Positions 46,605 through 47,640 of a stretch of 64,000 bases of DNA are shown here, one piece after another. The notes below the pieces were generated by a model, which saw nothing but the letters and a program-made list of their open reading frames with translations, was not told the DNA's origin and searched no databases. Positions within the stretch are counted from its first letter, which is position 1; the number at the start of each line of letters is the position of its first letter. Source of the stretch: Catellatospora vulcania (GTDB lineage: Bacteria > Actinomycetota > Actinomycetes > Mycobacteriales > Micromonosporaceae); contig NZ_ML769310.1 of NCBI RefSeq assembly GCF_009720385.1, forward strand, positions 62,001-126,000, read 5' to 3'. Position numbers and translations under genes: made by a program.

Positions 46605-46733
46605 CGCTCCATTAGAGCAACCGTGCAACGAGCGTGACAGGCCGTGACACTGTCACCGCCGACACACCCGGTGCGCGCGGCGGGCCGGTGCTGCGAAGAT
46701 GTCCCCACTTTCCGCATGGTGTCAGTGCCGATG

Positions 46734-46778
46734 TTGTCGGTGGGCTCTGATAGAACATGCGTATCAAACATGTGTTCG
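46734..46778 (+). promoter_or_regulatory. DNA-damage promoter (PafBC/RecA-NDp type) with LexA box
   Basis: TTGTCGGTG (46734-46742), an 8-nt spacer and TAGAAC (46751-46756) match the mycobacterial RecA-independent damage-promoter consensus TTGTCRGTG-N8-TANNNT, except for the last base. Just behind the expected start lies CAAACATGTGTTCG (46765-46778), which agrees with the actinobacterial SOS-box consensus CGAACRNRYGTTYG at all but one defined position. The gene at 46801 should therefore respond to DNA damage through two routes. Confidence 0.75.
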
Positions 46779-46800
46779 GCGAGGGTGTGGGAGCGCGGTT

Positions 46801-47499
46801 ATGGCGGGACTGTCGACTCAGGAGTTGACGCAGATCCAGGAGACGCTTGCGTCCGGCAAGCGACCCAGGGTCATGTTCACCGAGGCGGCCGGCCAGATCG
46901 CGGGCCAGCTGGGACAGGTCGTGCAGCTCGACGACCCGGCCACCCACGATGAATGGATCATGGTGAAGTTCGGTAGCGACGTGCTGCCGTTCGCCCCAGG
47001 CGACCTCACCATCCCGCCCAAGGGTGCGACCGGTCGCAAGCCGGTGCCCGAGCCGGTTCCGGAGCCTGTCGCCCCGCCCGAGCCCGAGTTTATGATCATC
47101 CGTGAGAAGCCTGGCCGTCAGGAGCGACCCGTGTCCGTTAATCCCGAGGTGTCCGAACAGGAGACGCCGTCCGCCGTCGCGCCCGCCCCGCGCAAGCCCG
47201 CCGCGAAGGGCCCCAAGGTCAAGCCGCCGGCGGGGCTGACCGTGACGCTGGCCTACACCGAGGGCGAGTGGACGGTCGGGGCGGTCCAGGGCACCAAGGC
47301 GCTCGCCAAGCCCTACATCATCAAGGCGCAGGAGGCGCTGAAGATGGTGTCGATGCTGGACGTGCCGGGTGTGCAGGAGGCCGTGGAGCAGATCCTGGGC
47401 GCGGAGCGGGCCGAGGCCGAGGCGCACGCGCTCAAGCTGCGGGCCGAGCTGGCCGAGTTAGAGGCCAAGCTGGCCGAGTTGGGCGCGGCAGGCGCCTGA
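46801..47499 (+). CDS. Uncharacterised protein with DNA-damage-type promoter
   Basis: 232 residues. The N-terminal domain (1-80) is compact: LSTQELTQIQETLASGKRP, FTEAAGQIAGQLGQVV, WIMVKFGSDVLPFAPGDL. A Pro/Glu/Lys-rich linker (85-160) and a C-terminal part of about 70 residues follow, with LAKPYIIKAQEALKMVSM and a Glu/Ala/Leu coiled coil to the end. I recognise no named family. The KxxxA-rich helices and basic linker could suit a nucleoid or repair-associated adaptor (inferred). The upstream region combines a PafBC-type promoter and a LexA box, which is strong contextual evidence for a damage-response role. Confidence 0.75.
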   Translation: MAGLSTQELTQIQETLASGKRPRVMFTEAAGQIAGQLGQVVQLDDPATHDEWIMVKFGSDVLPFAPGDLTIPPKGATGRKPVPEPVPEPVAPPEPEFMIIREKPGRQERPVSVNPEVSEQETPSAVAPAPRKPAAKGPKVKPPAGLTVTLAYTEGEWTVGAVQGTKALAKPYIIKAQEALKMVSMLDVPGVQEAVEQILGAERAEAEAHALKLRAELAELEAKLAELGAAGA

Positions 47500-47510
47500 G
47501 ACAGCACGGA

Positions 47511-47546
47511 AGCGGGGTGGCCGTTCGCGCGGCCGCCCCGCTTCTT
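47511..47546 (+). terminator. Terminator after the damage-type gene
   Basis: Stem AGCGGGGTGGCCG (47511-47523) and CGGCCGCCCCGCT (47530-47542) with one mismatch and a TTCGCG loop, followed by TCTT. It starts 12 bp behind the stop codon. Confidence 0.8.
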
Positions 47547-47640
47547 GCTGCGCAGCGCCGGGTCCGTGGGCATCCCGGTCTCCGGCACGCCACGACCCGG
47601 CGCTCAGCGCCGGTGGCCTCCGGCGGCCGTCACGGGGGCG

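Follow-up and report, generated by a model that had tools for sequence, protein, structure and literature searches.

Predicted LexA- and PafBC-type control of a gene for a two-domain DUF6319-like protein in Catellatospora vulcania: a candidate DNA-damage-response unit

This study examined a 64,000-nucleotide stretch of the Catellatospora vulcania genome (assembly GCF_009720385.1, contig NZ_ML769310.1, positions 62,001 to 126,000; hereafter the window), in which a gene for a 232-residue protein lies behind a PafBC-type promoter element and a LexA-type box. From comparisons of sequence and predicted structure, we moderately favor reading this gene as a single-gene DNA-damage-response unit that would be controlled by LexA and PafBC and would encode an adaptor-like product of two domains. 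The elements described in an earlier note on this DNA were all found where it had placed them when the sequence was re-read, and they are collected in Table 1 together with the features that were added here. The inferred 5' leader measures about 38 nt. A longer reading frame starting at 46699 (266 aa) was rejected because it would traverse the promoter and because relatives start at or near the ATG at 46801.

Table 1. Features of the gene and its promoter region (positions count from the first letter of the window).
Feature	Position	Strand	Basis or remark
PafBC-type upstream element TTGTCGGTG	46734-46742	+	sequence, pattern scans; followed by N8, then the -10 hexamer
Extended -10, TG-A-TAGAAC	46748-46756 (TG 46748-46749, hexamer 46751-46756)	+	TGNTA in 76/76 box-aligned ortholog promoters
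LexA/SOS box TCAAACATGTGTTCGG	46764-46779 (core CAAACATGTGTTCG 46765-46778)	+	matrix score 23.8; over the inferred transcript start
Ribosome-binding site GGGAG	46789-46793	+	sequence
Gene, 232-residue two-domain DUF6319-like protein	46801-47499	+	ATG 46801, stop 47497-47499
N-terminal domain, residues 1-75	46801-47025	+	SH3/KOW-like by prediction
Pro/Ala/Lys-rich linker, residues 76-142	47026-47226	+	low pLDDT
C-terminal DUF6319-like domain, residues 143-232	47227-47496	+	three strands, helix, long helix (predicted)
Terminator-like hairpin 3' of the gene	47502-47550	+	-43.5 kcal/mol, z -7.5

The promoter differs from the pattern TTGTCRGTG-N8-TANNNT at one position, the final T, and the box differs from CGAACNNNNGTTCG at one position, as the earlier note had claimed for the SOS box. 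Within the window, the promoter pattern with up to 2 mismatches occurs at 1 site compared with 1.10 in shuffled sequences, and the box with up to 1 mismatch occurs at 8 sites compared with 2.77 expected; therefore, the window by itself makes a convincing case for neither motif. Across the source genome (8.83 Mb), 35 sites match the promoter pattern with at most 1 mismatch compared with 7 for a reversed-pattern control, and the box CRAACANNTGTWCG is found at 11 distinct places (14 rows, with three palindromes counted twice), including recA, lexA and the window gene, compared with 2 control matches. Given these genome controls and the conservation among orthologs, a chance origin of the motifs was rejected, although the window data alone could not do so.

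Conservation was assessed in 80 ortholog loci, of which 79 were testable (the upstream region of L026 was too short), against 1501 control windows of 150 nt drawn from elsewhere in the same loci and mostly coding. The LexA matrix was derived from 48 boxes within 1 mismatch of CRAACANNTGTWCG in the upstream regions of 30 recA and 30 lexA genes of the family, the source genome included; since the CRAACANNTGTWCG pattern was composed after the boxes of the genome's own recA and lexA and of the orthologs were known, the matrix score and the hypothesis are not wholly independent. Scores of at least 12 were reached by 70/79 ortholog promoters and 0/1501 controls, and scores of at least 6 by 76/79 promoters and 2.0% of controls (L007, L035 and L065 fell below). 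In a thinned set, comprised of 29 dereplicated promoters already scoring at least 6 plus L007 and L035 re-added by hand (L065 omitted), 26/31 reached 12 compared with 0.016% of shuffles. The strict box CGAACNNNNGTTCG with at most 1 mismatch was found in 12/80 orthologs (in one, L018, at a different site); this low count arises because most Micromonospora ortholog promoters carry CAAACAGGTGTACG, a form resembling the family's own lexA operator CAAACATCTGTACG. The window box belongs to the same class as the boxes of the genome's own lexA (CAAACATCTGTACG) and recA (CGAACACGTGTACG), both read on the strand opposite to the gene. The box follows the -10 hexamer by 8-11 nt in 75/76 aligned promoters, and in the window it covers the inferred +1 downstream of the -10, in agreement with the earlier expectation of a box at the transcript start. 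Judged by these sequence comparisons, LexA control of the gene is highly probable. Of the two motifs whose presence upstream of orthologs the earlier note had treated as decisive, the LexA box is thus conserved, and the PafBC element is patchier.

With the last T ignored, the PafBC element had 0 mismatches in 15 of the 79 orthologs, at most 1 in 26, at most 2 in 38 and at most 3 in 72, compared with 0/1501, 0.07%, 3.0% and 16.8% of the controls, respectively. Most loci of Catellatospora (4/5 fetched, with TTGTCGGAC in L005), Actinoplanes and Winogradskya carry the element in near-exact form; it is decayed in many Micromonospora loci (GTGTCGCAG), and it was not seen in the four Salinispora ortholog loci. 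Among the 76 promoters scoring at least 6, the start of the element precedes that of the box by 31-34 nt in 66. All 76 box-aligned promoters carry a TGNTA extended -10, and their hexamers end in A 65 times, in C 10 times, in G once and in T never. The resemblance to a PafBC-type promoter that the earlier note had described is thus supported, spacing included, apart from the final T, which is missing here and in all 76 aligned orthologs, with TGNTA instead. As a result, PafBC dependence is less certain than LexA control in the family; the shared -10 deviation makes a fully canonical PafBC promoter less likely and might permit PafBC-independent firing after LexA release. The genome encodes pafB and pafC beside pafA, with the Pfam architectures WYL+WCX and HTH_PafC+WYL+WCX. 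For the window species, we lean slightly toward PafBC control of the gene, going by its sequence features. As a separate observation, contig C24 of the same genome (L207, L208) carries a pair of Pup_ligase-family genes separated by about 4 kb; pafB, pafC and a frame with a TatC-like look by eye come after the second gene.

Thirty of the 35 genome-wide PafBC-type sites were inspected. Such sites start 28-32 nt before the start codons of genes for a NAD-dependent DNA ligase, an Lhr-type helicase and a UvrD-type helicase (Pfam names), and recA of the same genome has a site with 2 mismatches 29 nt before its start codon; these loci (L090, L091, L108, L139) suggest a near-leaderless PafBC regulon in Catellatospora. 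Other inspected sites precede unrelated genes or no good frame, in line with the control count. In 20 genomes of the order, recA had the exact CGAACNNNNGTTCG SOS box in 20/20 and a PafBC-type element with at most 3 mismatches in 17, located 92-134 nt before the RecA match. The earlier statement that this combination marks core repair genes such as recA is thereby supported as a pairing. The layout differs, however: at recA of the source genome, 83 nt separate the starts of the two elements, whereas at the window gene both belong to a single promoter whose box covers the inferred +1.

Several further arrangements were noted. In several Micromonosporaceae lexA promoters (L179, L185, L190, L192 and others), the LexA box is followed by a PafBC-like motif at a start-to-start distance of 17 nt, as in GTGTCGGTGAAACACGATACGGT of L192. 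Locus L143 has a LexA-type box, CAAACATATGTTCG, at its positions 1501-1514 on the opposite strand, shortly before a long frame that appears radical-SAM-like with an intein-like interruption by eye; the partial frame had no Pfam match at E <= 1e-10. Additionally, at L294, L295 and L296 and in genomes G396, G399, G414, G426 and G430, recA lies in a frame of 728-995 codons whose RecA match falls into two parts, as an intein would cause.

At E <= 1, the encoded protein itself matches no family in Pfam or NCBIfam, so that the earlier description of a product with no recognised family is correct for this protein; its relatives, on the other hand, match Pfam DUF6319 (PF19844). The closest relatives, from five Catellatospora species, are 91-98% identical. 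A PF19844 match was obtained for 7/16 close relatives at E <= 10 (best E 1.2e-4) and for 40/50 two-domain relatives of the wide alignment at E <= 0.5 (best E 1.3e-22), and the relative at L276, with 40% identity to P0001 in the alignment, reaches a PF19844 score of 27.5 against a cut-off of 23.9. Through such intermediates, the window protein qualifies by sequence as a homolog of DUF6319. This family was detected in 151/397 genomes of the order, in 128 above the curated cut-off, and some genomes hold two copies, one short and one long with an extra N-terminal domain. No mention of DUF6319 by name was found in the mostly non-subscription literature searched, and earlier studies may refer to such genes by locus tag. 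Residues V24, G35, G58, D60, W157, L213, L217 and L224 are invariant in 50 relatives and look structural; no catalytic signature was seen in the window protein. Sequence searches of the PDB gave nothing informative, and a further NCBIfam search gave scattered matches that look like composition.

At least four MFS-type proteins encoded in the same genome likewise end in this C-terminal domain (three with a Pfam MFS match; loci L083, L084, L085 and L126). The domain is therefore not damage-specific and is probably an interaction or dimerisation module. Membership of these fusions in the damage regulon was considered and rejected, as the upstream regions of three of the four contained no motif (best ROM 5 and SOS 2-3 mismatches).

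The AlphaFold2 model (50 sequences) has a mean pLDDT of 79.5, with residues 1-75 and 143-232 folded and approximately 76-142 forming a disordered linker of low confidence. Foldseek returned no match at E <= 0.001 for the predicted structure; for the N-terminal domain, PsaE chains ranked first with TM scores by target of about 0.5-0.7 and E of 0.05 or worse (best 0.054 and 0.14), and a Pol II-DSIF chain was also listed as a weak match. Among the 50 members, 6 had a weak match to KOW2_Spt5 (best E 6.2e-5), which lies below the curated cut-off in the one member tabulated. Net charges are -4 for the N-terminal domain, +2 for the linker, 0 for the C-terminal domain and -5 for its helix. Such values are atypical of a DNA-binding protein, and a DNA-binding tail in the window protein was rejected on charge. 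No membrane segment was seen in the sequence by eye.

The surroundings of the gene point to local synteny only. In the 80 ortholog loci, a divergent SDR-like gene occurs in 44, a convergent cydB-like gene in 40 and an upstream peroxiredoxin-like gene in 32 (automatic frames, with gene names assigned by eye); a function in an operon or neighborhood was rejected, as no functional link is visible among these neighbors. A phage origin was likewise rejected, since tblastn of the window protein and one short relative against 50,697 phage records gave no match at E <= 0.01.

Damage-type promoters extend to distant relatives across the order. Forty long relatives were hand-picked from the DUF6319 search (39 from outside Micromonosporaceae and L276 from within it), and 220 nt upstream of each were scanned. 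A PafBC-type site with at most 2 mismatches precedes 16 of them, a LexA-like box with at most 1 mismatch precedes 12, and one or the other precedes 27, compared with 0.8%, 1.2% and 2.0% of 1175 control windows; examples are TTGTCGGTGGGGTGCGGCATCAT (L237), TTGTCGGTGTCGTAGGGCAAGCT (L245) and, at L263, CGCACGGACGTTCG just before ATAAGCT and 145 nt before the start. The 13 relatives with neither motif include L276 and 6/7 of those with proteins beginning MPPRRR. For the short form, the 30 best-scoring DUF6319 loci, seemingly without the N-terminal domain, were used, of which 29 were testable (the domain was not located in L221). A LexA-like box with at most 1 mismatch lies within 450 nt before the domain in 28/29, compared with 2.0% of 999 control windows, and in 25/29 the box is CGAACNNNNGTTCT, with one fixed deviation (GTTCT) and overlapping the apparent -10. 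Because the recA box is exact CGAACNNNNGTTCG in 20/20 genomes drawn from both groups, the fixed T counts as a genuine departure from the SOS box, and LexA binding at these boxes is presumed. With damage-type sites at both long and short loci, DUF6319 has the appearance of a damage-regulon family across much of the order. Since many distant relatives carry one signature or the other, the protein is probably a damage-response factor, as the earlier note had proposed for this gene.

Combined, the motifs suggest a scheme in which LexA, bound over the start of a sigma-A extended -10 promoter, would block firing in undamaged cells, and RecA-driven LexA cleavage after damage would open the promoter. 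PafBC activated by single-stranded DNA would then raise firing through TTGTCGGTG (mechanism as described in PMC11804915 and PMC6789036), a boost that appears likelier in Catellatospora and Actinoplanes than in many Micromonospora. Going by sequence and predicted structure, the product would be a cytoplasmic, non-enzymatic two-domain protein that may self-associate through the C-terminal DUF6319-like helix, with the SH3/KOW-like N-terminal domain held on a flexible linker and binding a partner, for which the likeliest candidates are RNA polymerase, a repair protein or nucleic acid. This biochemical role, self-association combined with partner binding by the N-terminal domain, is offered as a doubtful first guess.

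A simpler account is that the gene responds to LexA alone through an ordinary extended -10 sigma-A promoter, with TTGTCGGTG a relic or a chance match and PafBC uninvolved. The extended -10 in all 76 aligned promoters and the final T in none agree with this account, as does the retention of the box where the PafBC element has decayed in many Micromonospora. It sits poorly, however, with the 15/79 orthologs in which the element is perfect apart from the ignored last T, a state found in 0/1501 controls, and with the PafBC-type sites of at most 2 mismatches before 16/40 distant long relatives compared with 0.8% of controls; we regard it as rather unlikely.

Two further explanations accept the damage response and assign the product another task. 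The protein could be a damage-induced nucleoid or chromatin protein, a coiled-coil dimer whose basic tail compacts or protects DNA. Some short relatives have KPKRGRPKG-type and KKAPAKK-type stretches, which resemble AT-hooks and HupB tails, and weak matches to H-NS_N, YbaB and KfrA_N were recorded (KfrA_N mainly in the helix); yet the window protein is not basic, weak coil matches can be composition, and the C-terminal domain is present on MFS-type proteins, so this task is unlikely. The protein could instead be a damage checkpoint factor that slows cell division or replication by attaching to a protein of either process, which would suit a gene that stands alone with a LexA box of its own and a terminator-like hairpin behind it, the adaptor-like architecture of the predicted structure, and the analogy with SOS division inhibitors. 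The known actinobacterial inhibitors of this type are small membrane proteins, however, and with no membrane segment seen by eye in the window protein, a checkpoint task seems more improbable still.

The reading of the gene as a damage-response unit under LexA and PafBC has implications beyond this locus. Most of the targets known for the SOS and PafBC responses are repair and replication proteins of the classical kind. Here, an uncharacterised family tracks damage-type promoters in several families of the order while the regulator apparently switches between PafBC, LexA and both, and the damage link persists in roughly two of every three long relatives examined, as would be expected for a gene that cells need during damage. 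Tentatively, the short and two-domain forms of DUF6319 may constitute a dedicated DNA-damage-response family of Mycobacteriales-type actinobacteria, under LexA in some lineages, PafBC in others and both in Micromonosporaceae, with a function (SH3/KOW-like recruitment of a partner to damaged DNA or to stalled RNA polymerase) held by no known SOS protein. The role of DUF6319 thereby becomes a testable question in harmless soil actinomycetes. PafBC-type promoters are also indicated at repair genes of Micromonosporaceae; for Streptomyces venezuelae, PMC9380542 describes an initial motif search suggesting that the PafBC motif is not conserved there.

Compared with known systems, the protein shares with DUF6319 (PF19844) the C-terminal domain, with co-linear W157, G164, R203 and a leucine series, and differs in its extra N-terminal domain, which lies outside the 115-position model. 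The predicted fold of that domain comes nearest to the small beta barrels of PsaE and the Spt5 KOW domains, with no match reaching significance, and the window protein itself has no KOW match. The promoter reproduces exactly the TGTCGG-10N-TA spacing of mycobacterial PafBC/RecA-NDp promoters, for which the published consensus is tTGTCRgtg-8nt-TannnT (PMC5656591) and TGTCGG-10N-TA-3N-T (PMC8151990); it departs from them in a -10 that ends in C and in the added TGN extension, and its inferred leader of about 38 nt contrasts with the near-leaderless layout of the PafBC-type sites at the genome's own recA, ligase and helicase genes. Relative to actinobacterial LexA regulon promoters, for which the S. 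venezuelae consensus is tCGAAC-N4-GNNCGa (PMC9380542), the box is alike in form and position; the second base of its core is A, as in the lexA boxes of the family, and the window gene carries a PafBC-type element as well.
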